A stretch of 64,000 bases of DNA. Origin: Paratrimastix pyriformis. Taxonomy: Eukaryota > Preaxostyla > Paratrimastigidae. A program made the position numbers and the translations under genes. The stretch lies in assembly GCA_027972325.1 (NCBI GenBank), contig JAPMOS010000004.1, positions 62,001 to 126,000 of the forward strand, read 5' to 3'. Shown one piece after another: positions 1-62,690 of this stretch; within the stretch, counting starts at the first letter, position 1, and each line of letters starts with the position of its first letter. The notes below the pieces were generated by a model. It saw only the letters and a list, made by a program, of their open reading frames with translations, made no database searches and was not told where the DNA came from.

Positions 1-3000
1 CCGCATGCAGCGGCGAAACCTGCAGGAGCTCGGCCTCGACTACCTGCCCGCCCCGCTGCCCGCAGGCCCGGGAGAGGACGCCGACCAGGAGGCCAGCGGC
101 GGCGGCGGCTCCGAGGATGACGAGGACGAGGAGGAAGAAGAGGGGGATGAAGATGAGGACGAGGAGGAGGACGAGGACGAAGAAGAAGAAGAAGAAGAAG
201 AAGAAGAGCCTCCGGCCGGGGCGGGCCGGGGCCTGGGGGCGGTGCCGATCGAAGTTGCCGAGGCGACCGACGGGGCCCAGCCGCCACCACACCGGGGGGG
301 CGCCCTCGAGGACGCCGCCCGGCCCGAGCGGCCCATGTCGGAGATCCCCGAGGAGCCCGCCTCGACGCCGCCCCCCCCGGGGCCGGGTGACGTTGCCACC
401 GCCACCGCCGCCGGCCGGCCGCCCCTGCCCCCGGGGGCCCGTGGTCGGCTGGCCGGTCAGCCGCGGGCCGGGGCGGAAGTGGCCTGGGGCCGGTCCTCGA
501 TCAGCGGGGACGCCGAGGAGGTGCTGGCCGTGCCCGAGCTGCCCCTCGAGGAGCCCGACGAGGACCCCGCCCAGCTGCCGGCCCGCCCCCCGCAGCCCGA
601 CGATGCCCACGGTCCGTCGGCCACCCCCCCCCCCCCCCCCCCCGATGGCCGCCACGCGCATCAGCCCCCCACGCCTTCCCCCGTTCTCGCCCGGCTCTCT
701 GCTCAGACAGCTCTCTGCGGGGGCCCTGCGGGGGGCACGGATGCGTGTGGGCAGCCTTCCAGACGCTGCGCCAGTTCGTGCTGGGGCTGCCCGAGCAGCT
801 TGCCCGGCCCGAGATCACCGAGGTGACGGCCGACGGGCGGGTGCTCCGGTCGGGGGTGCGCCTCTCGACCCGGCAGACCCTGGGCAGCTTCCTGGAGGGC
901 CCCTTCTGGCGGTGGACCTCGCTGGGGGCCGTCCTGCTGACTCTGCTCTTCCTGTGGCTCGACCCGGCCCCCCAGCTGGCCCGCATGCGGACGGGCTCCC
1001 AGCCGGCGGCCGACCCGGCCCAGGCCCAGGCCCTGGAGGCCCTCCACGAGGCCTGCGCGGCCATGGACTGGCTCTACGTGGCCTTCTGCGTGGTCGAGCT
1101 GTGCCTGACGGCCGCCGGGCGGGGCCTCCGGGCGGCCCTGCGGTCGGGCTCGGTGTGGCTCAACGGGCTGGTGGGCCTGTCGATGGTCTTCAACCTGTTC
1201 CCCATCCACGCGGCCAGCCCGCCCTTCGCCCAGGCCTTCGTCCGGCCCCTGAAGGGCCTCCGGCCCCTGCTGCTGGTCAGCCACATCACCGAGGTGCGCA
1301 AGGCGGCCCTGAGCGTGGTCCTGGCCCTGCCCGAGCTGCTCCAGCTGGCCGCCCTGGGCTTCCTGATCCTCTTCGTGGTGGCCGTCGTGGGCATCGAGCA
1401 GTTCGGCAGCTGGTTCGGGGCCACCGACCGCTACGCGGTCACCTTCGCCAACGTCTTCACCGCCATGCAGTCCCTCTACGAGCTCATCTCCCAGGAGGGT
1501 CCGTTTTTTTCGCGCGCCGCCCCACCCTCGAGACGACGACCCACTCGCTGGGGGGGTGCACTCGACATGGAAGCGCCCCTTGGCTGGTCCTGAGCCGCCC
1601 TGGGGACTGTGTGTGTGTGGCGTGCAGGCTGGCCAACGACGGCCTACAAGTTCGTCGTCAAGGCCATGGACTACGGGGCGAGCCCGCTGGGGCCGATCAT
1701 CTTCTTCATCCTGGTCACCTTCGTGGGCCTCTTCATCAACGCCATGCTCATCAGGTCCGTCGTCCGACGGCCCGCGCCCGCCCGCCACCACCGCCGCTCC
1801 TCGGTGCCCGCCGCTCGTCTCTCCCCCTCACTCTTCTGCCTCCGCTCCCTCCGATCATCGTGATGCACCTGCACGCGGACCTCTCCACCCCCCCTCCCCC
1901 CCTCCCCCTTCATCAATCAGTACGCTGACGAGCCGGGTGCCGGCCAACATGACCCGGCTCGAGGGGCTCGACCTGCTGCAGCCCGAGGAGCGGCGCCTCT
2001 TCAAGCTGCTCATGGCGGCGGCCGAGCTGCGGCCCCGGCGCGGCAACACCCTGCCCACGGCGGCCCACGGCCCCGCGGCGGAAGGCGGGGCTCAGCCAGG
2101 CGGCCGCGGCGGGGCTCGCCGAGGGGCCGGGGGGTGGTGGCTCTGGGCGCGGCTGCAGGCGCACCGGTTGATGAAGGCCCGGCCCGTGGCCGTGGCCCGG
2201 GTGGTGCTGACCCTTGCCTCGGTGGTCTCCTCGGCCCTGGTGCACCGGGCCCAGGGGCCCGCCTGGGACGGGGCCCTCTTCGTGGTCAACCTGGTCTTCG
2301 CCTGCCTGTTCTGGGTCGAGGCCGCCCTCGAGCTGGCCGGCTGGGGGCTGGCCCGCTATCTGGAGCGGCCCGCCAACGGGGTCGACCTGCTGGTCTGCCT
2401 GATGGCCACCGTCAACCTCTGGGCGCCCGCCGTGCCCTCGCTGTCCTTCCTGCGCCTGGTCCGGCTGCTGGGCCTGCTGGGCCCGGGCAGCGCCCTGCTG
2501 CTCTCCCTCCGGGCGGCCGCGCCCCGGCTGCTGGCCACCACGGGCCTGCTGGTCATCGTGCTGGCATGCTTCGCCACCACCGGGATGTACCTCTGGTACG
2601 ACACGGCCCCCGGGGTCCAGATCGACCACGGCCAGGTCGCTATTCCCCCCCCACCCACCCACCTACCCCCCCCCCCCCCCCCCCCCCCCCACACACACAC
2701 ACAGACACACCACAACCACCACAACCAACCACAACCACCACAACCAACCACAACCACCAACAACCGACCCCCACCAACCACCACCGCGTTTTGCTCTCGC
2801 CTTCCGCGGTCTCATTGGCTACCCCACGGGCGCCTGGATGGGTGGGGCGGCATGGCGTGGACCGGGGTGTGCAGGGCTTCGTCAACTTCAACTCGCTGGG
2901 CACCTCGATGCTGGTGCTGGCCCGGTGCATGACGGGCGAGGACTGGTCGGCCGCCCCGCGTCGCGCCTGGGAGGGAGGGAGGGAGGGACGGAGGGAGGGA

Positions 3001-5335
3001 CGGAGGGAGGGACGGAGGGACGGAGGGACGGAGGGACGGAGGGACGGAGGGACGGAGGGACGGAGGGACGGAGGGACGGAGGGAGGGACGGAGGGACGGA
3101 GGGACGGAGGGAGGGACGGAGGGAGGGAGAGCCCATGGTCACGCCTGCTCACCCGTCGCTGCTTGTCTCCGCACGCTGCCGCCCTCTGCTGCCGATCCGC
3201 CGCGGGGCCGCTCCAGGCCGACAGTCATGAGGTTCGCATGCCCCGTGCCCCCGTGCCCCACCCCCCCCCCACCCCCCCACCCCCCCCGATCCAACCTCCC
3301 CGCCCCTCTCTGCGGGACCGTCACCACCCTTTCCTGACCTGGTGGGGCACGGGGCGGGTAGGACTGCACGGTCGAGCCGCCCGACTGCAGCCTGCCCGGC
3401 AACACGACCGACCTGACCGAATACCCCATGGTCGCATGGGGTCCGCGCCTGCCCCCCACACACACACACACACACACACATATACGGTTGCACCGACCGC
3501 GTCTCGTCTCTGCCCGCGCCGCCCCGGAACGCAGGGACCTGCGGCAGCGGCGCCTGGGGCCGCATTTACTGGATGCTCTTCTACTTCGTGGTGGCCTGGG
3601 TGCTCCTCGTCTGCCCACCCATCCCCCCCCCCCCCCCCACCTCCCACCCCCACGCGCACACACACGTACGCATGCCGCGACCGGTGTGACCCATGACATT
3701 GCGTGCTGTGTGGTGGCTGGCCGGGTGGGTGGCTGGCCGGGTGGGTGGCTGGCTCTGACTGGCTGGCTGGCCGGGTGGGTGGCTGGCCGGGTGGGTGGCT
3801 GGCCGGGTGGCGCGGGGCAGCATTCACGGCGCTGCTGATCGGGCCCCTGAAGGCCTCCATCACCGAGCGGGAGGAGTGGGAGGAGGAGCTCGACCAGGCC
3901 GAGGGCGGCGACCAGGAAGGGGCGGCGACGGCCCGGGTGACGAGGAGAAGGGCGCGGGCGCTGGGGCGGCGGCCCCGCCGGGCGGCGAGGGGCAGCCCCG
4001 GGAGGAGGCCCCCAAGGAGCAGCGGGCGGGCCGGCGGAAGGGGAAAGATGCCGTCTCGACCTACCTGCGCCCCTCCGACCTCACCCAGTTCGTCAGGGTC
4101 CGCACCATCAACCTGTCGCACCCCCCCCCCCCCCCCCCTCCCCGAGCTGCCTGGCTTATCGCGTCCACGGCGCTGTGATTTGGGCGACATGTGCGGGCGG
4201 GCGGGGCTGCAGCTGTGGCGCAAGTACGACCCCTACGGGACGGGCTTCGTGCCGCTGGGGAGCTGGAGTCCCTCTTCGGGCGCCTCTCCTACCCCTGGGC
4301 CCCGTACTCCAGCCAGCCGGCCCCGGCCAGGCCCATGACCAGCCCCGCGCCCAGGTCCGCCCCCCCCCCCCCCCCCCCCCCCCGCCCGCCCGCCCGCCCG
4401 CCCGCCCGCCCGTGGTGTCGACCAATCCCCTCGCACACCTCGCGCACCCCGGCCGATAGGGCGCCGACGCGGTCCAGCCCGTGGCGGCCACAGACCCTGA
4501 CCCACAGATGCAGGTCTGCATCCCTCACCCACCCACCCCGTCCGCGGCCCCTCCGCTCGTCGGTCGTCGACTGATCTCGCCGTGGTGGTTGGTCCCTGCT
4601 CTTGGGTTGGCCCTCTTGGGCGGGCAGGAGGTCGCGGGCCTTCATCTCGCGGCTGGGGATCCCCGTGACGGGGCCGGCTCGCGCCAGATCGATTGAGATC
4701 GCTCTGTCCTCGTTCCTGGTCGACCGCCCTCCTGTTCCTCCTCTCCTCCTCCTCCTCCTCCTCCTCCTCCTCCTCCTCCTCCACCTCCTCCGACTCCGAC
4801 TCCGACTCCGACTCCGACTCCGACTCCTACTCTTACACTCCCTCCTCCTCCTCCTCCTTTTCATTGGACCCACCAAAATCGTTGTGCCTTTGCGGAATGT
4901 GGGGGGTGACTGCAGACCCACCCCCGCTATCCGCAACGGCTGGTGGTGGTCCAGGAGCGAGACTGGGGCAAGTTCAACCACTGGACGGCCGCCACCCACT
5001 GGCTGCGGCGGTTCTTCTGCCCCCGGTCGACCATCCGGCTCAAGGTGACCCGCGATGCGGGCCGGGTCAGAATCGCCCAGGATTCACAGGAATACCCCTT
5101 CAGCGCGGATAGCTTCCCCAAGGGGCAGCCGGCCACCGTCACCATTGCCGAGTCGCCCTCCCTCAATGCCGCCCGCACCCGTGCCACCCTGAAACGGCGC
5201 GGTTTTTCTGCGTCTCCGTCGCCATCTCCTACGACAGGCGATCAAAATCCACCAAGAGAGCGCCTCGTCGTCAGTGGTCCCGGAACAGTCGAGGCGCCAC
5301 TCCATGTGACAACCCATTTCGAGGCGGAGGTTTAA
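1..5335 (+). CDS. Voltage-gated cation channel alpha subunit, domains III-IV and C-tail (5' partial)
   Basis: This is the 3' half of a four-domain channel of the Cav/Cch1/NALCN superfamily; domains I-II would lie upstream of the window. The first exon encodes an acidic linker (long Asp/Glu run, about 115-210). Domain III is in exons near 752-1502 and 1628-1754, with six membrane segments and the pore sequence LYELISQEGW. Domain IV is near 1916-2640, and its pore is in an exon near 2876-2955 (VLARCMTGEDW). Both pores carry a Glu at the filter position, which in this family favours calcium. The last membrane segment lies near 3535-3600. A degenerate EF-hand of the Cav C-tail type (LWRKYDPYGTGF) lies near 4206-4260, and the final exon near 4935-5335 ends at TAA. 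Voltage-sensor helices have few Arg/Lys. Introns carry C runs and minisatellites. Two one-base frame slips occur near 3930-3950 and 4255-4265, each next to a G run. Exon edges around 2950-3430 are uncertain. Identification as a Cav-type channel is firm; the subtype is not. Confidence 0.85.
2970..3130. repeat. GGAGGGAC-type minisatellite in a channel intron
   Basis: A tandem array of GGAGGGAC, GGAC and GGAGG units fills most of the intron that follows the domain IV pore exon. It has no coding role. Confidence 0.9.
3714..3812. repeat. 16-bp minisatellite in a channel intron
   Basis: About six copies of GGCTGGCCGGGTGGGT fill the intron after the last membrane-segment exon. Confidence 0.85.
4735..4860. 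repeat. Trinucleotide and hexanucleotide array in a channel intron
   Basis: Consecutive (CTC)n and (GACTCC)n tracts form a pyrimidine-rich stretch in the intron upstream of the last channel exon. Confidence 0.85.
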
Positions 5336-6824: not shown

Positions 6825-8323
6825 ATGTCCGAAGCTACCGTGTTCTGGTCCGTCCATGACTATCGGAATAGATTTCTTGTTTCTAACTTTCACCGCCAAT
6901 TCCGCGCTTGCTTTCCGAATCCGACTGTAGCGTTGACAATTCAGAGTACATGCGCAACACCGATTACTCTCCTTCCCGCATGGACGCCCAGCGCGCTGCC
7001 GCTTGTTTGGCAATTGATTCCAAATCGAGCAAGAATCCCGAGAGTACTGTCGGACTAGTGAAGATGGCCCCACCCGAAGCTCTTTCAAGCTGCACCACAG
7101 ACATTGGTACTGTTCTTCGACAAATGGAACAGATGCAACTTGAAGGAAGGACCGCCCTCCAGCCTTCGATTCAGATCGCTCAGGTTTGTCCTGCAGGCTC
7201 GCCACCGCCGCACAGAACTCCCGCCCCTCCGTAGCTGGTGCTGAAGAGGCGCCCCACCCGCGAGCAAGCTCAACGCGTGATTGTTTTCATTGGAAGTCCC
7301 ATCGCTGAAGATAAGGCCTCTCTCGAGAAGCTCGGGAAGCAGCTTCGCGTCTGTGTCTCCGCGCCTCCTCCGGCTTCAACTCCTTCTCTCTCTCTCCCTC
7401 CAGCGCTCGAACATCGCCTTGGATGTTGTCAGCTTTGGGGAAGTGGTCGATAACACCGAAAAACTGGAGACTTTGGTGAACGCCGCCAATAAGGACGGCA
7501 ACAGTCACCTCGTGACGATTCCCCCCGGCCCCTCCATCATGGCTGACTGCATTATCAGCTCTCCCATCATTGACGCCTCTGCCATTGGGACGATTACTGG
7601 TGGCGTTCGGGGACCCGCTGGCGCCGCCACTGGTGGGGATCTCTCCCAGGATCCCGAGCTGGCCTGGGTCTGGCCTTTGGCATGAATGATGGTGGGGCAG
7701 GGCGGGACGTGCTGTGCTCGTCGGATTCTCACACCGTCACTTCCCGTAGGCACTCGAACAATCTCGGATGGAAATGGAGGCGCAAGAGAAGGCCGCCATC
7801 GAGGCCAGCAAGAAATCTGACGCAGCGACCCCCGCCGGACCCTCAGGCACTGCCGGTCTGATCTGTGGCCGTTTGCTTTTCCTCGCTGACCCTTCAGCAG
7901 CCATGGAGCTGGACGACGACGCTTTGATGCAGCAAGCACTGCTTATGTCCCTCGAAGGTGCCCAAGCTGCAACTCCCGAGCACAAGGCGCCCCCTCCCCC
8001 CTCTGCTCCCGCCACGAGCACTCCCGCCACCCCCGCCCCCGCCCCCGCTGCCCCTGCCGCCAAACCGACGGGGGCTCCCGAACTGGATAGCGATATGGTG
8101 AACGTGCTGGCCGACGAAGAGTTTGTTCGGAAAACGATGATCGATCAGGGTCTTGACCCCGACGACCCCACCGTCCAGGTCTGTTGATCAAAATCTGCTG
8201 ACTGAAATGGTTCACAACCATTCATAGGCTCTGATCGCTTCGCTCAGGCCCGATCACCCAGCTCCAGCCAAGCCAGCCCAACAACCGCCGAAAGAAGAGA
8301 AGAAGGATGAGAAGAAGGAGTGA
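6825..8323 (+). CDS. RPN10: 26S proteasome ubiquitin receptor RPN10 (PSMD4)
   Basis: RPN10 sits at the lid-base interface of the 26S proteasome and captures polyubiquitinated substrates. Exons: 6825-6847, 6931-7183, 7235-7348, 7404-7667, 7750-7855, 7901-8178, 8228-8323; together they give an uninterrupted 377-residue protein, the usual family length. The first exon-exon join restores the family signature CVDNSEYMRN at the start of the VWA domain. SHLVTIPPGPS is another family hallmark. Two ubiquitin-interacting motifs follow: DPELAWALEQSRMEMEA (split over the 7667/7750 junction) and an ELDDDALMQQALLMSL segment in exon 6. The tail is Pro/Ala-rich and then Lys/Glu-rich, as in relatives. All six introns are 45-86 nt, and donors are GTCTG, GTCCG or GTTTG. 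The start codon was chosen because it matches the conserved short first exon. Confidence 0.96.
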
Positions 8324-8504
8324 ATTGGCAATGTTGCGTTGATTCCACTTTCTGTTGAATATTCATGTTAGATGGTGTTCCACAAAAGGACGCCTCCGAA
8401 CGCAATTCTTCTGCTGTTGTTTCGTTGGGTCATCAAACAACCCGCCAAAGCCCAATCGGGTTTTGCTCCTATAGCCGGGGTGTTTCATTCCTAAGCAAAC
8501 AAAA

Positions 8505-9378
8505 ATGAGGCCAATGCCTTCTCGTGGTGGGCCGCGCGGTGGTTTCCGCGGTGGTCGCGGCGGCGGTTTCCGCGGTGGCCGTGGTGGTGGCTTTGGCCGC
8601 GACCAGCAATCTTATGGCCCTCCTGCCGAAATCATTGGTTCGTCTTCGACCGTATTTCCATCCATTTCCGACCGCATTACTGTCCCTGCGTTTAGAGATG
8701 GGCGCTTTCTCTCATGAGTGTGAGGGCGATCTCGTTTGCAAGGCCACCACCGATAAGGTGCCCTACTTCAACGCCTTCATCTTCCTCGAAAACAAGAGCC
8801 AAATCGGTAAGGTTGATGAAGTTCTGGGCCCCTTCAACGAACTTGTCTGTTTTCTGCGCTCCATCCATTTTTCCTTTATATCAAAAAAATGTTTCCCCAG
8901 TATTTTTCCGTGAAGCCCGATGAGGGTATTAAGGCCAGCTCGTTCAAGGCCGGCGACAAGGTTTACATCAGCAGTGATAAGATTCGCACCAAGGATTCCC
9001 TCCTTCCTAAGCCCAAGTCTGTCTTCCACACCCCGAACCCTTCTCTAAAACACGCATCATTCTTTCTCTCCCACGAAACTCGACCTGCATTCCTTTTTTG
9101 ACATCGGTCATTATTAATAGGCCCACCGCTTCCGGTCTGTTCGACACCCCTCCTCGCTTTTCGTTCACGTCCTCCTCCACTTTTCACCAGCCGGTGGTCG
9201 TGGTGGCCGCGGTGGAGCTCGCGGCGGTGCTCGCGGTGGCCGCGGTGGCGGGTTCCGTGGTGGCCGCGGTGGCGGGTTCCGTGGTGGCCGTGGCGGCGGG
9301 TTCCGTGGCGGCCGTGGCGGCGGGTTCCGTGGTGGCCGCGGTGGCGGGTTCCGTGGTGGGTTCCGTGGCTCGAGCTGA
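8505..9378 (+). CDS. GAR1: H/ACA snoRNP core protein GAR1
   Basis: GAR1 belongs to the H/ACA ribonucleoprotein that pseudouridylates rRNA and snRNA in the nucleolus and Cajal bodies. Exons: 8505-8637, 8696-8844, 8901-9016, a 14-nt micro-exon 9121-9134, and 9191-9378; together they encode 199 residues. The layout is the classic one: an N-terminal Gly/Arg-rich segment, a central core beginning [13 protein letters not shown] with [16 protein letters not shown] and [15 protein letters not shown], and a second long Gly-Gly-Arg/Phe tail. The micro-exon is needed to keep the reading frame between KPKP and the C-terminal RGG array. The gene follows RPN10 on the same strand after 181 bp and faces CDK10 tail to tail. 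Confidence 0.96.
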
Positions 9379-9829
9379 AGTTAACGTTAACCAGTCGCAA
9401 GCACGCACCACCACCCCACCCACCCCTCTCTCCCCCCCGGCGCTTGCTCCTCCTCCCCGGCCGTGTCCGCTGGCTGGGTGGCTTCTCGTTGTCGGCGTTG
9501 GCTCTGGTGAGGCTCTTCTCTCGTCCTCTGCCTTTCCTTCCCCGGAAGAACACCCCTTCGTCGTCCCCCACACGCGGCTGTCGGCAGGGCGCGGTTGGTT
9601 AATTTTTTTTCGAAAGGAAACGAGGTGGGTTGATCCCATTCCATGAAGCCGAGGTGGGGCGAGACCAAACAAGCCCTCACCAGCTCAGCTCAGCTCAGCC
9701 CTCGAGGAGCCGGACGCCGTCGGTGGCATCTATCGCTCTTCCCGCGGTCCGACTTGGGAGGAGGCGAACCGCCGATGGGCGCGATGGGCTGTTGTTCTGT
9801 GGGGGGCCCTGGGGCGCGGGTGGGGCCGA
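9379..9829. other. Intergenic interval between convergent GAR1 and CDK10
   Basis: This 451-bp stretch between two stop codons should hold both 3' untranslated regions. I see only a short AGCTC tandem (about 9680-9705). No gene or structured element is recognisable. Confidence 0.6.
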
Positions 9830-12136
9830 TCAACCGCCCGCGCGTGCCTTCTTGGTGCCCCCCGGGGCGGCCGGTCGGCTCTGCTTCCCGGGCCGACTGG
9901 GACCCGCGGGGGGCGCGTCGGCTCCGTGGTGTTTGTGCCTGCATCGGGCGGCGGGCGGGCGGGCGATGAGCACACGGTGTGCCGGGGGTCAAGCAAGGGA
10001 AAGGAAGGGAAAGGAGGCGGGGATGGGGTCTGGACCTGTGCTCGCCCACCGTGGCGGGGAATGTGGGCATGAGGTCGATGGGCTTGGGCAGGGGCGCGTC
10101 GCGGAAGTAGGGGTGGTTGAGGGCATCCCGGGCCGTCTGAGTGCGCGCGGCGGATGGGCGGGAGAGGAGAGGAGAGGGTAACGGTCATGCCGTGCATCGG
10201 GGCAGGTGCCCCTGGGGGAAGTAGGCCGGGGTGGGGCGGGTGGGGCGGACGATGCGCCTGCGGGGGTCGTAGAGGAGGCACCGGCTGAGGAAGTTCTGTC
10301 CCTGGGCCGAGATGCGCCCGTTGAAGCGCTCCTGGATCAGGTTGTACCTGCCCCCACGCCGCCACACGGGTGCGGGTGTCAACAACGGCAATGCCCCGTC
10401 AATGGGGGGGATATTGGTGGTGGTGGCGGCGGCGGCGGTGGGACAGACGGGTGGGTGGGGAGGGTCAGCTTGGCCACCTGGGGCAGGCTGTTGTAACCGG
10501 GCCAGATGCGCTCGTGGGCCGAGCCCAGCAGCTGCGCCGAGCCCCGCGCCGCCAGAGAGGTGCACCGTCAAGTGGGGCCGAGTGATGATGGGCCGGGCAT
10601 GAGGGCATGGGGTGCATGGGGGCATTGGGGCATTGGGGCATTGGGGAATTGGGGCATTGGGGAATTGGGGGCGCATCGGTGGGCATGGGGGCACGCATGG
10701 GTGTGTGGTGGTGTGGGTCGGACCTGGGCGATCTTGTCGAGGACCCCGATCTCGTTGCGGGCCGGGAAGAGGGGCGCCCTCAGGATGAACTCGGCGAAGA
10801 TGCACCCAATGGCCCTGCGTGTGTTGCGCGTGTGTGTGCGTGTGTGGAGTAAAGAGGGAAAGAAGTAAGTGTGTGTCGTGTAAAGAATGAACGAAGTAAC
10901 GGGAAAATAAAACAAAAACCAGAGAGGTAGAAGAGACAGCACGAATGTCACTGCACCCGTGGGCGAAGGAATCCCCTGTGGAGGGCGTTTGATAGGCTCG
11001 TTAGGGAGAGGACGGACCTGCCGTCGTGGCGTAATGCGGAGGGACCCCCACCAGGTGGTAGCAGTGAGTAGCGGCGCAAGGGGATTTGCACAACCACCCA
11101 CCACCACCAGATATAGCAGGGAGAGCACGCACACCCAACGAACGACCGGTCCATATGTCCAGTCCCTTCGGAGCGAATCGCGCACCCAACCACCCCTTCA
11201 CCACATCGGCCCGTCATGTGCATAAGTGAACATCGGCGCGCAACACCGAACCCGAAAAGCTTCGGGTGGGAACCCGGAGGCTCCCGTCCGCCGAAGCGGA
11301 TAGCAGCCGAAGTAGGCCGCCAAGACCCGATGAGCATCGGGAGAGAGCCATGTGCACTCTCTGATCAAAGGACGCAGCCGGAGCTGCCTTGGTGTGCGAT
11401 CCCCGAAATTCGGGGAGAGAGTCCGGAGACCCTCTATGTCCGACAGAACGGACTCAGCCGCGGACCGCTCAACTGGCTGGGGACCTCTGTGGAAGTCCCC
11501 CTCCGAGGAGCAGGAATGGCTGACGAATGTGTGTCGTGTAAAGAAGGAACGAAGTAACGGGAAAATAAAACAAAAACCAGAGAGGTAGAAGAGACAGCAC
11601 GAATGTCACTGCACCCGTGGGCGAAGGAATCCCCTGTGGAGGGCGTTTGATAGGCTCGTTAGGGAGAGGACGGACCTGCCGTCGTGGCGTAATGCGGAGG
11701 GACCCCCACCAGGTGGTAGCAGCGAGTAGCGGCGCAAGGGGATTTGCACAACCACCCACCACCACCAGATATAGCAGGGAGAGCACGCACACCCAACGAA
11801 CGACCGGTCCATATGTCCAGTCCCTTCGGAGCGAATCGCGCACCCAACCACCCCTTGTGTGTGTGTGTGTGTGTGTGGGATGGAGGGGAGGAGCAGACCA
11901 CATGTCGACGGCCGTCGTGTACTCGCTCGCCCCCAGGGGAGGAGCTCGGGGGCCCGGTACCAGAGGGTGACCACCTTGGGAGAGTATGGCTTGATGGGGT
12001 CATCGAAGAACCGGGCCAGCCCGAAGTCGGCCAGCTTCAGATAGCCGTGGTTGTTGTACAGCAGATTGGAGACCTGCGCGCCGACCAGAGCGTGTTGTAT
12101 GTGTGCGTGCGTGTGTCTGTGTCTGTGTCTGTGTGG

Positions 12137-12168
<32 letters not shown>

Positions 12169-12987
12169 AAGGGGAGGCGCGTACGGTCTTGGGTGGCCAA
12201 CACGCCGCACAGGCAGCACAGGCACACCCTCCCGTCCTCTCCCCCATTCCATCCTCCCTCCCTCCCGCTCTCCTCCCCCCCGCCTTCCGGCCGGCCGGAC
12301 CTTGAGGTCCCTGTGGATGATCCAGTTGTCGTGCAGATACGAGATGGCCGAGAGTAGCTGCACCATGAGGCATTTGATGTCGGCCTCCGTGAAGGGCGCC
12401 CCGCGCATCTCGAACAGGCCCGCCAGGTCCTGCGGCGGGGGTCGGCATGGGTGAGGCGGGCTGGATGTGAGCCGGCCGGCCCTGCGCGCACCTCCCTTAC
12501 CCCCTCTTATTCGACAGACATGTTCGCAGTATTCGTAGACCAGGTAGACACTAGAGACCAAACGGGAAGAAGATGCGGGCCGGGTGGGGGTGGTGGAGGC
12601 AGACCTGTCCACGTTGTGACCCACGACAACCTCCTTGAGCTGCACAATGTGTGGGTGTCGGATGGATTTAAGCAACTTGATTTCGCGAAGAGAGGTGACA
12701 GGGACACCGTCTTTCTCCCGGTCGAGGCGAATCTTCTTGAGAGCAACGATGGAGCCATTCTGAGTATCGACGGCCCGGTCTATGGCAGCGCTCGTTGTGG
12801 GGGAAATGCATTGCTACAGACATACGATTCCGTAAGTGCCTTCTCCAATCTGGCCGAGCTTTGTGAAGGTGTCTACACTCCGACACCGACCCACCTTGTC
12901 CTCCTGTGTTGAAAATGCCATTTCGGTGTCTAATAGTTCGGGAACAGGAGCCTCATCGACGGGTTTGATGGTTTCATCCTCTTCCAT
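9830..12987 (-). CDS. CDK10: Cyclin-dependent kinase 10 (CDK10-type Ser/Thr kinase)
   Basis: Exons in transcript order: 12987-12822, 12779-12605, 12550-12520, 12429-12301, 12073-11899, 10814-10724, 10531-10449, 10347-10251, 10136-10036, 9938-9830; about 385 residues. All kinase landmarks are present: GEGTYGIVY loop, VALKK lysine, PVTSLRE helix (in place of PSTAIRE), HRDLKVSN, DFGLAR and the activation segment [16 protein letters not shown]. The segment LKEVVVGHN and the end motif LMPTFP followed by a basic tail match CDK10 better than CDK11. CDK10 pairs with cyclin M in animals; that partner is inferred, not visible here. One base appears to be missing in a C run just after the APE motif (about 11935), where the frame shifts and then resumes as the family sequence EYTTAVDMW. 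The fifth intron (10815-11898) carries a pair of 329-bp direct repeats. The gene is divergent from the LRR gene. Confidence 0.93.
10606..10680. repeat. GGGGCATT tandem repeat in a CDK10 intron
   Basis: About eight imperfect 7-8 bp units (GGCATTGG / GGAATTGG) lie in the intron between the sixth and seventh CDK10 exons. Confidence 0.8.
10870..11198. repeat. 329-bp direct repeat, copy 1
   Basis: It is nearly identical to 11528-11856; I find two mismatches by eye. It begins TGTGTGTCGTG and lies wholly in CDK10's fifth intron. I see no coding capacity conserved beyond chance. Confidence 0.95.
11199..11527. other. 329-bp spacer between the direct repeats, rich in short inverted repeats
   Basis: The spacer is the same length as each flanking repeat but unrelated to it in sequence. 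It holds several perfect short hairpin candidates, for example CCCGAAATTCGGG-like, CCCGATGAGCATCGGG and GAGTCCG/CGGACTC pairs, which suggests a folded RNA or a compact element core. I recognise no RNA family or ribozyme core. Confidence 0.5.
11528..11856. repeat. 329-bp direct repeat, copy 2
   Basis: This is the second copy of 10870-11198, in the same orientation and offset by exactly 658 bp. The copy stops where a (GT)n run begins. Confidence 0.95.
12105..12168. repeat. GT repeat followed by a 29-nt G run (C run in the CDK10 sense)
   Basis: A (TGTCTG/TGTG)n tract leads into an uninterrupted G run at 12140-12168. In the direction of CDK10 transcription this is a C run inside the intron between exons 4 and 5. 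Confidence 0.9.
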
Positions 12988-13107
12988 CTGAAAACCGTCA
13001 GAAAAGAAGACAGCAACTGCATCACTAAACCTTCCCTGTTCGCCTGCGTTCTGCGTAAAGAACCTGAGGACAGACCGGCTCGCTTTTCCCAGTTGGCCAA
13101 ACTTTTG
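12988..13107. promoter_or_regulatory. Shared upstream region of CDK10 and the LRR gene
   Basis: Only 120 bp separate two divergent start codons, so both promoters and 5' leaders must fit here. It is locally poorer in GC than the gene bodies. I see no TATA box or other named element. Confidence 0.55.
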
Positions 13108-14143
13108 ATGGAGTCTCTCTATTTATGTAATCATTCTCTCGTACAAATCCCACCAATTCCTCAATCCACAATTGTCCTATGGATAGCGGATAACAACATC
13201 AAACGGATTTCGAATCTGAGCAGCAATTTCCGTCTCAAAGAGCTGCATATCGACCATAACCAGATCGAAGACATCTCCGAACTCTTGCAACAGCGAAATT
13301 TGGAAGTCTGTTGTTGAGTCGTTCACCCCCACTGACAGCTTTGCAGGTTTTAACCCTTGCGCACAATTCTCTTCGTGAGCTTCAACCTGTTGTGGACGTG
13401 TTGAAGAATCTTCATTTTTTGAAAACTCTCGACCTCACCGGCAACCGGCTGACGGATGATCGTTCCTATCGACTCACGCTCATCGAGAACTGCCCGCATC
13501 TACTGCTCTTGGATAATCATATAGTGACCGAGCAGGAACGCCTGCAAGCGCGTAGTCGCTTCGGGAGTCGTTCCGTCACCACAGCTGCGACGACCAAGGG
13601 AGTATCCCTCAGGTCGCGTTCAACTGCCGACATCATCTTGCAACAATCTCAGCTGACCAAGGTCTTGCCGCAGTGTTTCCCATTCGTCTCGACTTTGGCT
13701 CGCTCAGGACCTCTCACGCTACTGTAACGCACATCGTCGGCGGGTGGCCCAGGAAGAGGAGGAAAAGGAGCGGCAACAGGTCCGTCCCCGGACATGTCCT
13801 CTTGCTTGCCCACCACCACCCCGCTCCCCCTCCCCAGTTGGAGTCCGAGCGGGCCACCATCCGAGCGCGCACAATGGCCGTCCTCAAGGCCCCCCTCCCT
13901 AAGGCCCTCCTGCGAAGGGTCGATGATGCCCCCCGACCCGACCCGGATCTCCCGGCCCCGGCCCCCCCGGTCCCGCCTGCCCCGGGGAGGCGCGATTTCT
14001 TTGTGTTCCCTTCGTCACAGCGCGGGCCCACCGGCACGCCAACCGCCCCCCGGGCGGCCTCGCGGGCCATGACCCGGACACGGGCTCGCAGCGTTGAGTG
14101 CCAGTCGAGGTCTCCAGTCCCCCAAAAGGCAATCTTCATATAA
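13108..14143 (+). CDS. Small leucine-rich-repeat protein with LRR cap
   Basis: Exons 13108-13305, 13347-13661, 13708-13779 and 13838-14143 encode 296 residues. The N-terminal half has about five LRRs (LWIADNNIKRISNL, LKELHIDHNQIEDI, LTLAHNSLREL, LKTLDLTGNRLTD) closed by an LRR-cap segment, ENCPHLLLLDNHIV followed by TEQER. The middle exon adds a short Glu/Lys/Gln-rich helix, and the tail is Pro/Arg-rich and probably disordered. The architecture resembles axonemal and centrosomal LRR proteins, but no subfamily can be named. The three introns are 36-58 nt. The stop codon is 9 bp from the stop of convergent RBM42. The first in-frame ATG at 13108 is taken as start. Confidence 0.85.
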
Positions 14144-14152
14144 CACAGGAAG

Positions 14153-14832
14153 TTAGATGATGTGCTTATTCTTGTTCTTTTTGTTGTAAAAGCTCCGCTC
14201 CTGCCACTTCGATTTCTTCAGCTTAATGGGGCGGCTCCCAACATACTGGCCGTGCATCTCCTTGTAGGCCTTCAGGTAGTCGTCCGGGTCACTGAAGCTC
14301 ACAAACCCATAACCCTTGGTCTTGTGAGTGCGGTTGTCCTTGACGACTTTTGCCTTGTTGAACGATGCGTACTTCGAGAAGGCCCTTGTCAGCATATCGT
14401 CGGTGACTTCCGTCCCCAGATCACCGCAGAACATGCGATAATCATCTGCGAATGATGAGTCAAGAAACCCCGAAGAGACTGTACAAACAGACTTTCTGGC
14501 CACTCGAGAAGAGTGCGGTCTTCCCATGTTTCGTCTGCTGCTTTGCGAATGATAGTTCGTTTCATCTTTCGAAACTGTTGGTGCTCGGCCGCAGATTCTG
14601 GAGGAGGTGGAGGAGGAGTCCGAGCTCCTGAAGGAACGGTTGACGTCACACCACCCGCCATCAGAGCAGCCATCGGCGGAGGGCCAGGCGGTGGTGGGGG
14701 AGGAGGGAAAAACTGTTGTTGCCCGCCCTCCATCTCGGTATCCCATTGTTCATAGTCCGAGACCGGGTTTGGTCGTCTGTACGGTCTTTGGTGAGCTTCG
14801 GGAACCACCTGTTCGCGGCGCTCGCGGTCCAT
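14153..14832 (-). CDS. RBM42: RNA-binding protein RBM42
   Basis: Exons 14832-14493 and 14445-14153 give 210 residues. A Pro-rich N-terminal region leads into the family-specific bridge KMKRTIIRKAADETWEDRTL and then one RRM with RNP2 FCGDLG and RNP1 KGYGFVSF. The C-terminus YVGSRPIKLKKSKW is diagnostic of RBM42. RBM42 associates with the U4/U6.U5 tri-snRNP and hnRNP K in animals. The single intron is 47 nt with a GTCTGT donor, and the join restores NDYRMFCGDLG. The protein is shorter than the human one because the N-terminal region is reduced. Confidence 0.94.
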
Positions 14833-43158: not shown

Positions 43159-50244
<7,086 letters not shown>

Positions 50245-54881: not shown

Positions 54882-57800
54882 GGGGTTTTCCGCAGGGACG
54901 GACGCCGAATCCCCACGGGTTGCGCATGCGGAGCAGCTTGTGGCCACACTCCTCCTGCACCTTCAGGATGGCGTACGCATGGCCCTGTGCATGCCGCCAC
55001 CCCGACTTCAGGGGGCGACCATCACCCGTGTGAGCACATCCCGTCCTCTGCTTCGCCCCCCTCCCCCTCCTCTTCTTCTTCTTCTTCCTCCTCCTCCTCC
55101 TCCTCCTCCTCCTCCTCCTCCTCCTCCTCCTCCTCCTCCCTCCCTCCTTCTCCTCCTCCTCCTCCTCCTCCCTCTGGTCGGTGGATCTCTCGAGCAGGCG
55201 CGGGCGAGCGACCGACACAGGCCCAGGGCTGATGTCCCGGTCGGAGCCGGAGGGGTGCCGGCCCCATCAGGTAGCAAGCCTCCTGGTACTGGAGCAGCTT
55301 GGACCAGAGGGCCCCCGACTGGATGGCCTTCTGGGTGCTGGCCTGCTCGAGGGCGAACGTCTCCGGGATGCCGCCCGTCATGTCGACCAGCCCGTAGTGG
55401 ATCAGCCCCTTGGACAGGTTCGAGTAGCCCCGGTGCAGCTTCGCGTAGGCCTGGGGGGGGGGGGGGGGGGGGGGGGGCAGGGGGGCAGGGGCGGAACGGG
55501 CCGGGGCGAAGGGGAGGGGGGCGGAGCGAAGGGGAGGGGGGCGGAGGGGGGCGGAGGGGGGACCTTCTCGAGGATGGCGATCCAGGCCGTGGTGGCGGCC
55601 TCCTGGCGGGGGTGGGCGAAGGCCAGCGTGCCATCCTCCAGGACGGGCAGCTGGTCGTCCACAACCACGTCTGTCCCGCCGCCACGCAGGCCACACAACG
55701 CAGATCAGAGGCCAGCCCGGCGACGGGAAGAGGCGGCGAGGGGGCTGAGACGGTGTGCTGTGGGGGGGCGTGGCCACGGACCGTGGGCGACGCCGTCCTT
55801 CATGAAGCGGACGGTGTACAGGCCCCGGGTGGGCTCGGCCCGGCGGAAGAGCGCCTCGACCAGCTTGCGGTCCTGGGCCAGGGCGCTGGCGGCCGACAGG
55901 AGCCAGCAGTCGCCCAGGCCGCCCTGCTTGACGTCCTCCCCCAGCGAGTGGCCCTCGGCCGGCGGCGAGAAGAGGGTCGGCGCAGCGACCAGCTCCGAGA
56001 AGCGCTTCCAGCCTGCCGCCCCGGCCAGCCCCGGCACCAGTACAGGGCCACACCGCCGCCACCAGGAAGTCCCCCGGAAGATGATGCCACCACAGAATGG
56101 GTGGCGGGGAGTGTGGTGGTGATGATGGGGTGGGGTGTGCGGGGGCGGCGGACCCTTGACGGGGTTCTCCTCGGGGAGCATCTCGCCCAGGGCGGTCTCG
56201 CCGGGGGGGAACTCCTCGTCGGCGAACTTGCCCTCGGGCCCCAGCTGGGCCAGGACCTCCTCCTCGATGGGGCCCATGTGGACCACCTCCGCCTCGGCCC
56301 CCTCGGCCCCGGCGGGCTTCGGCTTGGCCGCCTCGGCCGCCACCCGGTCGGCCTCCTCCTGGGCGCGCCGGGCGGCCTCGGCGGCATCGCGGGCAACCCG
56401 CTCGGCCTCGAGGCGCTCGGCCTACCCGTGCCGGCAAGGAAGACGGATGGGTGTGCGTGTGAGGGAGACCGCCCCGGGGTGGCCGGGCGGGCGGGCGGGC
56501 GGGACCGACCTCCATCCGGCGGTGCTGCTCCTCGAGCCTGGCGCGCTCCTCCTCGAGGTGGCGCCGCTCGGCCTCCTCCTGGGTGCGGCGCTCCTCCTCG
56601 CGGCGCCGCTGGTCGGCCTCCTGCTGGCGGCGCTCCTCCGTCAGGCGGCGCTGCTCGGCCTCCTCGGCCTCCCGCATGCTGCACCGCCCCGACCCCCGCC
56701 CATCCCCAGGCGGCAGGCCAGGAAACCCCCGCGTCACGATGGATGGCCCAACCTCAGGTATGGCGGTGTTGGGCTGGGGATGCGGCGGACTGTGTCCACA
56801 CGGGGTTGGCGCGGGGGGTGGGGGGGATGGGGGGGTGGGGGTGGGGGTCCGGACCGGCGCTCGTACGCGAGGCGCTCCTCCTCCTTGCGTGCGGCCTCCT
56901 CGCGGGCCCGGATCTCCTCCTCGTCGCGCTTCCTGCGGGCGGCCTCCTCCATCAGGCGCAGCTGGGCCTGGCGCTCCTCGGACTCCCGTCGGAGCCGCTC
57001 GGCCTGGGCCTGGGCCTCGGCCTGCTGGCGGGCCCGCTCGGCCTCGGCCGCCTCGCGTTCCTGGCGGGCGGCGGTCTCCCGGGCGACCCGCTCGGCCTCG
57101 GCCGCCTCGCGGCGCTGGCGCTCGGCATCGCGGAGTCGGGCCTGCCGCTGCCGCTCGGCCTCCTCGATGGCCTCCTCCATGCGCCGCTGCGCGGCCTCCT
57201 GGGAAGCCATCGCCGCGTCTGCAGCATGCAGCATCAGCCAGACGGACACCCGGCCGGTAGACACGGACGGGGCAGGCAGCGAGATGACGAGACGCACGGC
57301 GATGGGCTGGCGCCTCTGGGAGGCGCCCCGGAGCTGCACGGATGGCAGGGGGGCAGGGGGGCAGGGGGGCAGGGCAGGGGGGCAGGGCAGGGGGCAGGGC
57401 AGGGGGCAGGGCAGGGGGCAGGGCAGGGGGCAGGGCAGGGGGCAGGGCAGGGGGGCAGGGCAGGGGCAGGGCAGGGGGCAGGGCAGGGGGCAGGGGCCGA
57501 CCGTACTGCTGCTTCTTTCCAGGTAGCGGGCCTTGTCCTCGGGGCTCCACTGGCGGATCTCCTGTGCGGTCAGGTTGTCGATCTTCATCACCCGGAAGAA
57601 TCGCTGCAGGGCCTGCTCCTCCAGCGCCTGCGCACCCACCCGCGCGCCGACCAGGGGGGAGGGGGGAGGGGAGACAGCCAGTCAGACGAAGAATGGGGGA
57701 GCACAGGCGGGGTAGCCAGAGCGCGGGGCGGGCGGGCGGGCGGGCGGGCGGGCGGGCGGGGCGCAGGGGTGGTGCGGACCCTGCTGACGGAAGCGCCCAG

Positions 57801-57919
57801 CATGACCAGGAAGCGGAAGTGGGCCTGGAAGCGCGACTCCTGCACGTAGCAGCTCATCGCCTGGTCGTCCAGCCGCGCCAGATCGGCCTGTCGGGCAACA
57901 GCAACAGCAACAGCAACAC

Positions 57920-57966
<47 letters not shown>

Positions 57967-58879
57967 ACAAGCAGCAGGACGTACGCACACGACATAAGTA
58001 TGAGACGAGGACGAGGTGGACCGGTGAGGTGCATTCTCTTTGGGCCTTGGGAGACGGGCAGGCGGGGGGGGGGGGGGGGGGGGGGGCGGACCATGGCCTT
58101 GACATAGGCGGGCCCCTTGAGGGCATTGGCCTTGGCCAGGTCCTGGTCCATCTTGGCGCAGAGTTCCTTCCAGGACAGTTTCCCGTTGCCGTCCTCGTCC
58201 CCATCCACGGGCGCCGGGGCGGCGGGGCAGCGGCGGCGGGGCAGGGGCCGTGCCGGCGGCAGTGGCGGGGTCGCCGGGCGAGGTGGCCGTCACCGAGACC
58301 GAGGGCGCCGCAGGGGCGGCGGGGTCAGCGGGGGCGGGCTGCTGGCCGTCGGATGTGGTCAGGGCGAGGCCGCGCCGGTCGAGCTGCTTCTGGGAGGCCT
58401 CCTCGAAAGCCGACTGGAGCAGGGCCCCGTCACGAAGGGCGCCACCCGGGCAAAGTCCAGGTACCTGCAGCCCCCTCACGATGACGTCTGTGAGCCGGGC
58501 CGAGGCGAGTGTGTGGTGGTGGTGGTGGTGGTGGTGGTGGTGGTGGTGGTGGTGGTGGTGGTGGTGGTGGTGGTGGTGGTGGTGGTGGTGGTGGTGGTGG
58601 TGGTGGTGGTGGTGGTGGTGGTGGTGGTGGTGGTGGTGGTGGTGGTGGTGGTGGTGGTGGTGGTGGTGGTGGTGGTGGTGGTGGTGGTGGCCAGGCCCGA
58701 CCGCAGAGGGGCTTCATGAAGAGAGCCGCCGCGATGCCCCACAGGATGACCTCGGCCAGGAAGCCGAAGGCCAGCAGGACGGGCAGGTTGGCCCGCTCGA
58801 CGGTCTCCCGCTGCGGGTCGTACGACCACACCGGGAAGATGTACCGCGAGAACTGCAGCCCACGCACGTCCGTCGTCCC

Positions 58880-58912
<33 letters not shown>

Positions 58913-59311
58913 GCGTCGCAACAACAGAGGGAGGCCAGGTGAGAATCAGGTCTCATGCGGCTGGGCGGCGGGACGAGGGTGGGGGCGAAGGGTGGGCGGG
59001 TGGCAGAAAGAGGGGCAGGCCGACCGATGGAGCCCAGCTTGCCAGCCAGCCCATGGCGGCCCCGAGGGCCGTGCAGAAGGCCAGGCAGCCCCAGGCGACG
59101 GTGAACCCGAAGAAGACGCTGCCCAGGATGATCCCCACGATGACGCCCCGCCCGCGCAGAGCAGCGCCACCACGAACAGGCTGGCCACGTAGGGCCGGGG
59201 CAGGTAGAATTTGTTGGTGGCCCAGCGGAGCACCATCGCCACCACGTACACGAGCAGCTGCGCCGGACACGAGACCCATGCACGGAGACACGATGAGGAA
59301 GGGGCATGGGG

Positions 59312-59348
<37 letters not shown>

Positions 59349-62300
59349 GTTCAGTCGAGGTGTGCCCCCGGGCGGGCCGACGGGTGCAGACCCCGTAGCC
59401 GACGAGGAGGCCGGCCCCGATGGCCCAGGGTTTGAGCAGGACGATGACCGAGATGCAGAAGGCCAGCAGCAGGGCCAGCGAGATCAGGAAGTTCACCCAG
59501 ACGAAGGGCACAAACTGCCCCCCAAGAGAGACCACCAAGCTGGGTGAAGGGGCCGGTTCTTGGGGGGGGAAGCGGGGGCGGACCTTCCAATGGTTGTCGT
59601 GCCACTGGTAGAAGGCCGCAGCCAGGCAGCACAGGGCCGGGTAGACGAGCAGGACGCACAGCAGGGCCAGGGCCTGCCACGTGCCTGCCCAATGCATGAA
59701 GCCCCCGAAGACGGCCAGCCCGTAGGCCAGCTCGATGCACAGTGCCAGCCCCAGCAGGACCAGCAGCAGCACCGAGGCGCGCAGGTGGTTGAAGTAGCGC
59801 ACCCAGATCATGTAGCACAGGGCCAGCTCGAGCAGGGCCGCCCCGGCCGACCAGCCCACCACCGGGTGCACGGTGAAGTGCAGGCTCAGCGAGTACCCCA
59901 GCAGGCAGAGGAGCAGGCAGCCGACCGCCAGGTGGAGCAGGTAGGTCGTCCCGGGGAGCCGCCCGTGGAAGAAGGCACGCAGGAAGTGCTCCTTGCTCAC
60001 GTCTCGAGTCTCGTGCACCGAGGGGCCACGCTGCAAGGGCGCGGCGCTCAGTCCCACACGGGCCGGGGCCGGGGCCGGGGCCGGAAGGGGCTGGTCCTGG
60101 ACGGCCGGGGCGGGAGCGGCCGGGGCTTGGGGCTGGGCGGCCGGGGTGGCGGGTGCCGCCTCGGCGGGGGCCAGAGAGGGCGGTGCCGGAACCAGCGCGG
60201 CTGCCTCCGATGGGGAGGAGGAGCCAGCCGACGTTGCCGCGGGAGGGGCGGCCGGGACAGCGGCGGCGGCGGCGGAAGGCGCCGTGGCTTCAACGGGGGG
60301 CGGCAGGGCGCTGCCCTTGGTGGAGGCATCCACGAAGACGACCGAGCTGACCGGGGGCAGCGCCCAGCGGGCCCGGGGCGGGACGAAATAGTAGTCGAGC
60401 CGGTGGAAGGCCAGGGCGGCCGTCAGGAAGGCGGCCAGGGCGAGGGGCACCCAGATGAAGGAGAGCAGCACGATCATGGACTCGGTCACGAAGTACAGGA
60501 TGACCCCCGTGCCCGCCGCGAAGAGCTCCGTCACCAGGCCCAGCACCACCACCGACCGGCTGAAGGCCCACCCGCCCCGCCACATCAGGCGCAGCGTGGC
60601 GAAGCCCAGCCCGAAGACGGCCACCAGCCCCATGGCAACGACGCCCATCTCCCACTGGGAGTGGTCCTTGGTGACCATCTGGAAGGGCAGCATGGCCTCC
60701 CGGCGCACGTAGACGCCGATCTCGAGGCCCCCGTAGAGCAGCCACAGCACCACCAGCAGCAGCTCGGGGCTGCTGACGATGACCAGGGCCCACTCGGACC
60801 GGGTGCGCGGCTTCTTGGGCGCGCCCTCCTCCGCCGGCCCGGCAACCCCGGCCGCCCCACCCGGCGCCGCCGAGAGCGACGCCGGGCCCTCGGAGGCGGT
60901 CGGGACCACAGTGGCGCCGGGAGCGGAATCGTCCGTGGTGGTGGTAGTGGCGGCAGCGGTGGCAGTGGCGACGGCGGCGGTCGGGGCCGGAACCCCGGCG
61001 CCCGCCACCAACGGGGGCCGACTGCCCGCCGCGGGGCTGCGGGTGGCCACGCGCCGGTAAGCGGTGGAGACGGTGGAGATGACCCCGGAGAAGAGGGAGA
61101 AGCGCCGGTCGATCTGGTTGGGGATGCCCAGCTTGCGGTGCAGCTCGGCCCGCCGGGTGTCCCGGGGGTCCTCGACGTGGAACCAGCGGCAGATCATGCA
61201 CACGCACAGGGCGCAGCCCCACAGGAAGAACAGGATCGTGTGGCCTGCACGAGAGGAGCGGGGATGGTGACGAGACGGCCGAGGGTACAGTCGGGATGAA
61301 CAGAGGCGTGCCGGGGGATGAGGATGAGGATGAGGATGAGGATGAGGATGAGGATGAGGATGAGGAGGAGGAGGAGGAGGAGGAGGAGGAGGGGCGTGAC
61401 GGGGCGGGAGCGTGACGGGGGCAGGGCGACGGACCGAGGAACCAGAACTCGGGCCCGGGGAAGATGAGGGCCGCCCGGGAGAGGACCAGCAGGGTTACCA
61501 CAACCATCGGCGAGCTCAGCTTCTCCCCCAACGAGAAGAGGTATCTGCACGCAAGAGCGGAGTGGATGAGATGAGCGGGGGTGGAGGGATGGGGGGGGGG
61601 GGGGGGGGGACACAGACGTGAGGAGGTCCAGCAGGACAATGGTCCCAGCCGTGACGAAGCCCAGCCCTACGTGGGGTGGGTGGGGTCAGTAAGGTGGGCC
61701 TGCGCCCGCGATGGTAGACAGACCCCCGTGGGAGCGCGTGTCGGCCTGGACCTGGGCCATGATCAGGACCAGCACCGCGTAGGCGACCAGGAACCCCAGG
61801 CTGATCAGCAAGAGCAGGAGCCCCAGGCCCATCCGTTGGCAGCAGCCCCGCTTGGTCACCTTCCGGGCAAGAGGCTGCGCCGCCCCGGGGGCGGGCGAGG
61901 TGGAGAAGAGCGTCGACCGACCGTCGGCGTCATCCTCCAGGGCAGCGGCGGCCGGGCCGGCAAGCTGACGCGAGACGAACTCCTTGAAGTCCACCAAGCG
62001 GCTCGGGGCCAGCAAAAAGACAATGTACTGGACAACAAGCATATTCCAGCACAGGAAGACGCTGCTGATACTGATATAGCTGGGGGGGAAGAAGAAAATC
62101 AGTGTTAGGAGAGACAGGCGCCGACGATAGAATGCGCAAACCTGTATGTGTTTCCTTGACCGGGGAAAAGAACGATAAATTGCCAGGCGCAGAAAAGACC
62201 CGCAAAGATCAGGAAACAGATGACGGTGGCCTTGCCAAGGCGCCAACCCTCACCCCACCACCAGCGGAAAAATCCAATAACAAACGCATAAAGGCCGATT

Positions 62301-62587: not shown

Positions 62588-62690
62588 TTCCTGTGTTGTT
62601 CTAAAGTTTCTGGTTCAAGAGGAAGCAAACGGCCCCGGCCGCGACAGTGGGGTCTTGTTAATATAACCCACTGGGCGCTGAGACAAGTGA
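62588..62690. promoter_or_regulatory. Shared 103-bp upstream region of the calpain gene and NRDE2
   Basis: It lies between divergent ATG codons at 62587 (-) and 62691 (+). A TTAATATAAC stretch lies about 30 bp before the NRDE2 ATG; calling it a TATA-like element is a guess. Confidence 0.45.

Follow-up and report, generated by a model that had tools for sequence, protein, structure and literature searches.

In Paratrimastix pyriformis the 5' splice-site code of the major spliceosome has very probably been recoded, with GUCYG in place of GURAG, and U1 small nuclear RNA (snRNA) has changed its 5' end along with it. This reading of the genomic DNA starts from a stretch of 64,000 nucleotides, called the window here (C332:62001-126000; contig JAPMOS010000004.1), in which genes at positions 6848..14492 had been noted for their unusual intron donors. 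It extends to the 56.06-Mb, 495-contig eukaryotic genome around it, which could be searched as a whole. Pairing by U1 is a near textbook constant as all major introns depend on few U1 genes, and changing U1 nucleotides 5 and 6 should harm splicing everywhere in a genome. Under the proposed recoding the U1 5' end would have shifted from AUACUUACCU to AUACAGACCU together with the donor consensus, in all full-length copies found, and AUACAGACC would be expected as the dominant U1 5' end.

The donor logo was derived from introns fixed by homology. A spliced aligner was written for this analysis, which requires GT and AG and gives zero weight to all other donor positions. Homologues from protein searches served as references for PRP8, PRP16 (10 sequences) and RPN10, the identity of those listed being 73-81%, 64-67% and about 50%, respectively, together with the CDK11B chain 7ukz_A for CDK10 and chain 3u28_C of the PDB for GAR1. 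Forty seven introns were counted in this way, with GT at +1/+2 imposed. Eighteen are from PRP8 on contig C456 outside the window, 19 from PRP16 within the window and outside 6848..14492, and 10 were re-derived inside 6848..14492 (RPN10 4, CDK10 4 on the minus strand, GAR1 2). Position +3 proved to be C in 44 and T in 3 of these donors, position +4 C in 32, T in 13 and G in 2, and position +5 G in 44 and C in 3, while A was encountered at neither +3 nor +4 and G never at +3. The last exon base was G in 33/47 introns, and the acceptor had C at -3 in 38/47. Of the 47 donors 39 read GTCYG, whereas among 676 further GTs of PRP8 and PRP16 the share was 4.6% (p ~1e-44). The choice between C and T at +4 differed between the gene sets, with 28 C and 7 T in PRP8 plus PRP16 versus 4 C and 6 T in RPN10, GAR1 and CDK10 (p 0.02). 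This suggests a preference for a pyrimidine, with local composition deciding between C and U. U12-type introns have GTATCC or ATATCC as donors; GTATCC was absent among the 13 donor hexamers seen, AT donors being excluded by construction.

These counts bear on an earlier note on this DNA, which had described GTCYG donors across the window with C or T and never a purine at +3, always C or T at +4, and mostly G at +5. The statements on +3 (47/47) and +5 (44/47) hold, and the one on +4 has to be relaxed for the two donors with G. The same type of donor, which the note had also attributed to PRP16, is indeed found there: its 19 counted introns have C at +3 throughout, C in 16, T in 2 and G in 1 at +4, and G in 16 and C in 3 at +5.

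A search of the genome with the Rfam U1 model (RF00003) yielded eight full-length genes with E-values from 2e-10 to 4e-13 and scores below the gathering cut-off, matching the model from position 1 to 166 end to end. A DNA search returned the same eight genes and one 32-base fragment. All eight full-length copies start with AUACAGACCUUG (consensus AUACUUACCUGG) and thus carry AUAC-AG-ACCU in place of AUAC-UU-ACCU. Nucleotides 5-6 are changed from UU to AG and nucleotide 11 from G to U, and the usual end AUACUUACCUG occurs in none of them. The copies are spread over eight separate contigs, and their outer flanks are unrelated, at a mean ungapped identity of 0.22 and 0.27. The seven of equal length vary at 6 of 156 positions, none of them before position 62, and the eighth has one extra base near position 59. 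When folded alone, the RNA is more stable than shuffled versions (z -3.35). The element CCCATAA is located at -59/-60 in all eight genes and is also present upstream of U6 (4/4 found), U5 (2 read of 7), U12 (1/1) and U2 (1 read of 10 matches). With this promoter element in common with other snRNA genes, the U1 copies therefore look like real snRNA genes. A genome-wide pattern of CCCATAA followed by ATACNNACCT with nucleotides 5-6 left free had nine hits, eight with AG and one with GG, and the reversed control had none. A U1 with the usual UU end, expected to start with AUACUUACC, was found neither by the Rfam nor the DNA nor the pattern search of the genome; these searches score the best candidates only and a highly divergent U1 could escape them. 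The sole candidate for a U1 with G5, which would match C at +4, was ATACGGACCT on contig C234. This candidate lies 50 nucleotides past the first base of a CCCATAA element and was rejected, as it had no Rfam match and, judged by eye, no U1-like continuation.

Among the snRNA loci, CCCATAA(T), often preceded by a run of T, was observed 54-67 bases upstream of the starts (L005-L012, L001-L004, L042-L043, L045, L048), and it looks like an snRNA promoter element of this lineage. The U6 copies additionally carry a TTATAA or TTATC stretch upstream. On contig C234 (L046, G000:C234:201901-202400) several copies of CCCATAAT/ATTATGGG are present in both orientations; the element may have uses beyond snRNA genes.

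In the standard register, as given in PMC4383343, U1 nucleotide 6 is opposite +3 and nucleotide 5 opposite +4 of the donor. In the genome described here G6 matches the C at +3 of 44 donors and forms a wobble with the U of the other three, and A5 matches U at +4. For unmodified RNA, duplexes with the 47 donors had a calculated mean energy of -7.24 kcal/mol when formed by the real U1 end, as compared to -3.20 kcal/mol with the usual one. Among the 16 possible pairs of nucleotides 5-6, AG ranked 2nd and UU 15th.

The four U6 genes found all keep ACAGAGA, as CGAUACAGAGAAGAUU. UCUGU forms an exact complement to U6 ACAGA as it stands, so that no change of U6 is needed. Nucleotides 1-7 of U1 (AUACAGA) have now become identical to the U6 box, and C at +3 is therefore opposite G in both RNAs. 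Pairing with U6 is available to 47/47 donors at +3, 44/47 at +5, 13/47 at +4 and 23/47 at +6. The search for U1 and U6 genes which the earlier note had proposed thus returned a changed U1 5' end (8/8) beside an unchanged U6 box (4/4), and of the two options named there the compensating U1 has found its counterpart in the A5 G6 of all eight full-length genes. Seven copies of U5 were found, with a normal loop 1, CGCCUUUUAC, in the one copy aligned, and U2 gave nine matches above the cut-off and one partial match; both RNAs look ordinary. A U12 candidate at L045:1501-1675 (-) scored 44.9 bits against a cut-off of 53 and has a U12-like 5' part and a CCCATAA element at -61; the same search also gives below-cut-off matches in 3 of 14 control genomes. 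From this candidate a minor spliceosome probably exists. No U11 match was obtained in the genome search despite the U12 candidate.

From these elements the following course of donor recognition may be proposed. In the usual register G6 of U1 would pair with C at +3, or wobble with U, A5 with U at +4, C4 with G at +5, and A7 and C8 with GU. The donor would then be handed to U6, the ACAGA box of which would meet +2 to +6 through the same heptamer AUACAGA as in U1. A C at +3 would form a Watson-Crick pair with G in both RNAs, and A or G at this position would face the U6 G in a nonstandard pair. At +4 a pyrimidine would be favoured, with C tolerated or even preferred despite facing A. The selection of the donor may be due to pairing with U1 or to pairing with U6. 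A further thought, which we regard as rather unlikely, is that one heptamer, AUACAGA, reads the donor twice, at first as part of U1 and later as part of U6, and that its A facing +4 (A5 in U1 and the equivalent A in U6) is modified, for example deaminated to inosine, which prefers C over U. With inosine there, +4 would therefore be a pyrimidine, more often C than U, and A would be missing.

It is hardly credible that the GTCYG logo is an artefact of base composition or of wrong junctions with true GTRAG donors a few bases away. The sampled sequence is rich in G and C (C 0.325, G 0.325) and the introns of the gene finder are rich in C, which speaks for it. The donors of PRP8 and PRP16 are, however, fixed against the homologues given above, with those of RPN10 at lower identity, and the contrast with other GTs, the absence of a purine at +3 and the matching, independent change in U1 all stand against it. 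Sensitivity alignments were made for PRP8 and PRP16 only. When GC was allowed beside GT, 18/18 introns of PRP8 and 18/19 of PRP16 were identical, the donor at 47786 giving way to a GC located 9 bases further along. Letting any dinucleotide act as donor (NN-AG) left 17/18 and 16/19 identical (33/37 together), again at odds with misplaced junctions. With both ends free (NN-NN) 4/18 and 0/19 were identical and 16 and 17 were within 6 nucleotides, and the junctions are left ambiguous. Of the U2-type features the GT-AG ends and G at +5 are thus retained, the GT donors being kept in the 33 of 37 introns under NN-AG, and +3 has lost its purine and +4 its A. An unsupervised gene finder was run on the window and 20 spaced 10-kb stretches from three other contigs (264 kb), with the codon usage seeded from RPN10, and converged on GTCYG. 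Starting from a uniform donor the final frequency of C at +3 was 0.776 (607 introns), and from a donor biased to GTAAGT it was still 0.767 (589 introns). It was 0.73 in a run in which GT and AG were imposed (542 introns), with C 0.52, T 0.21 and G 0.21 at +4 and G 0.64 at +5. The logo is thus not confined to few genes.

Another explanation, which is quite improbable, accepts the U1 change and assigns the selection of the donor to U6 and PRP8, by the complement to ACAGA and the G at +5, so that U1 drifted under relaxed constraint. The exact fit of UCUGU to U6 speaks for it, neither RNA pairs with C at +4, and a review argues that U6 commits the site and mentions a red alga without U1 (PMC11732430). 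Drift is, however, unlikely to yield the same two bases in eight copies, seven of which do not vary before position 62, and unlikely to lift the pairing with the actual donors to the second best of 16. Similarly improbable is a second, undetected class of U1, for example with G5 G6 or with UU, that serves a share of the introns, for instance the GUCCG majority. GG would pair best with the donors, one ATACGGACCT is found behind CCCATAA on C234, and PMC12621601 reports two U1 types in one diplonemid; the C234 site, however, lacks both a model match and a U1-like continuation, and all eight full copies recovered by the Rfam, DNA and pattern searches, which score the best candidates only, have AG. 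Very improbable is finally that loss of METTL16 or of Met141 in SNRNP27K shifted the donor from A at +4, as in Saccharomycotina, with U1 not involved. The absence of +4A in 47/47 donors would agree with such a loss. Yet a METTL16-like gene and SNRNP27K are both present in the genome, so that a donor switch of the METTL16-loss type is not what is observed, and +4A is absent although they persist; loss would moreover explain neither C at +3 nor the change in U1. One is a Methyltransf_10 gene (64.5 bits) with the motif CMCNPPF, from which we take it to be METTL16-like; this family also matches 5 of 14 prokaryote controls. The other is SNRNP27K (34.7 bits) with the motif RQYMNRKG, the M of which we take to be the Met141 discussed in PMC10581693.

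Several observations weigh against a recoding of donor and U1 together. The U1 matches score 50.8-60.2 bits, below the Rfam gathering score of 69.5, and U1 folded alone pairs nucleotides 4-8 with a later stretch, leaving the donor-binding part not free. C at +4 (32) exceeds T (13) though A faces this position in U1 (A5) and in U6, and the compensating U1 of the earlier note leaves this C, which forms no pair with A5, unexplained in 32/47 donors. Because +4 is mostly C, a U1 with G5 would pair better than the real one (GG -11.06 versus AG -7.24), yet no such gene was found. U1-C was not found in the profile search of the genome, the sole zf-U1 hit being presumably a WBP4-like protein with a WW-like stretch; a U1-C gene split by introns may have gone undetected. 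The 47 introns were drawn from five genes only, and the introns are rich in C (about 40%), which raises C anywhere, yet the 94% at +3 exceeds this. The gene-finder set is noisy. Unless GT-AG is imposed, 19-24% of its donors turn into GC, a drift of the second base to C not borne out by the homology set, and in runs with a neutral donor genes were merged or misframed; the counts therefore rest on homology. Even with GT-AG held it gives the share of G at +4 mentioned above. Junctions, expression of U1 and the U1 5' ends are all deduced from DNA.

The introns re-derived inside 6848..14492 and the aligned PRP16 gene are compiled in Table 1. The gene named CDK10 in the earlier note has CDK11B as its top PDB match. 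In the fourth RPN10 intron the alignment ran to 7932, skipping a small exon seen by eye only, and PRP16 introns upstream of about 44.8 kb are supported by weaker similarity. Four rows were excluded before counting: PRP8 number 19, which enters a C-terminal repeat, PRP16 48840, which read through a stop and becomes a GC donor at 48767 once GC is allowed, and CDK10 11922 and 11577, which are disturbed by an apparent frame shift read by eye. As the PRP16 GC donor matches the new logo at the other positions, C at +2 seems to be tolerated.

Table 1. Introns re-derived in the window and the aligned PRP16 gene (positions of the window; donors as exon/intron)
Feature	Donor	Positions	Strand	Basis
RPN10 intron	CTG/GTCCGT	6848..6930	+	spliced alignment to RPN10 homologues
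RPN10 intron	CAG/GTTTGT (+3 T)	7184..7234	+	spliced alignment
RPN10 intron	CGC/GTCTGT	7349..7403	+	spliced alignment
RPN10 intron	TGG/GTCTGG	7668..7749	+	donor by spliced alignment (sure); acceptor by eye
GAR1 intron	TTG/GTTCGT (+3 T)	8638..8695	+	spliced alignment to PDB 3u28_C
GAR1 intron	CTT/GTCTGT	8845..8900	+	spliced alignment to PDB 3u28_C
CDK10 intron	CCC/GTCTGT	10348..10448	-	spliced alignment to 7ukz_A
CDK10 intron	CAG/GTCCGA	10532..10723	-	spliced alignment to 7ukz_A
CDK10 intron	AAG/GTCCGG	12074..12300	-	spliced alignment to 7ukz_A
CDK10 intron	CAT/GTCTGT	12430..12519	-	spliced alignment to 7ukz_A
PRP16 (DEAH helicase), aligned extent of the gene with its 19 introns in the count		43992..50241	+	spliced alignment to 10 PRP16 homologues
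PRP16 GC-AG intron, outside the count of 47	CCG/GCCCGT	48767..48897	+	alignment with GC allowed

Some further features may be added. In CDK10 (window 10815-11930), as read by eye, the frame seems to shift by one base close to the kinase APE region, and the intron of about 1 kb after it contains two near-identical stretches of about 320 bases (10870-11200 and 11530-11860). By eye, predicted proteins near the window ends (334-4800 and 55266-64000) resemble multi-domain ion channels. A long low-complexity frame, (ADIEAQ)n, is located downstream of PRP8 (L041, about 2580-3270).

Nucleotides 1-10 of U1 have been called invariant from yeast to human (PMC4383343). The genome described here shares with the canonical U1/GURAGU pairing the register, the GU, the G at +5 and the U6 box, and differs from it in U1 (nucleotides 5-6 AG for UU, nucleotide 11 U for G) and in the donor (C for R at +3, Y for A at +4). 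In Saccharomycotina, according to PMC10581693, +4A was lost along with METTL16, a correlation was also seen between +4A and Met141 of SNRNP27K, the U1 sequence ACUUACC was invariant in the 236 genomes in which U1 was found (227 yeasts and 9 outgroups), and a change of pseudouridine 5 to A (Psi5-to-A) was named as a possible compensation and was not seen in the yeasts. The switches there from +4A to +4U are likewise genome-wide changes at +4 with U6 ACAGA kept, whereas here the METTL16-like gene and SNRNP27K are kept, U1 nucleotide 5 is A, and +3 is changed too. The present case therefore departs from the yeast rule, with a U1 change which those yeasts lack. The diplonemid S. specki, according to PMC12621601, is another protist with an altered U1 5' end, there as a C-rich variant beside U1 with the usual end; here all full-length copies found are changed and the donor logo as well. 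The larvacean Fritillaria borealis with its non-GT/AG introns, as described in PMC13326754, also shows a genome-wide departure of donors with METTL16 kept. For this animal a duplication of U2AF and changed N6-methyladenosine (m6A) were proposed, and both U1 versions share identical 5' ends. Nucleomorph U1 is reported to retain the usual donor-binding motif. In the open-access full-text literature, to which the search was confined with subscription papers outside its scope, no report of a wholesale change of the U1 5' end matched to the donor logo was found. Protein searches with RPN10, PRP8 and PRP16 gave no close relative among the matches listed, and in a PRP8 tree (27 rows) the organism has a branch of 0.46 and groups with no other row with support.

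The joint shift of U1 and donors would be a natural, genome-scale counterpart of compensatory U1 experiments. The lineage lets one test directly if the choice of donors still depends on pairing with U1, and it bears on how a shared code may be rewritten via a mixed U1 pool. The link between METTL16 and +4A also becomes testable, as the METTL16-like gene and SNRNP27K persist in this genome without +4A. Gene finders trained on GTRAG are expected to misannotate the organism and its kin.

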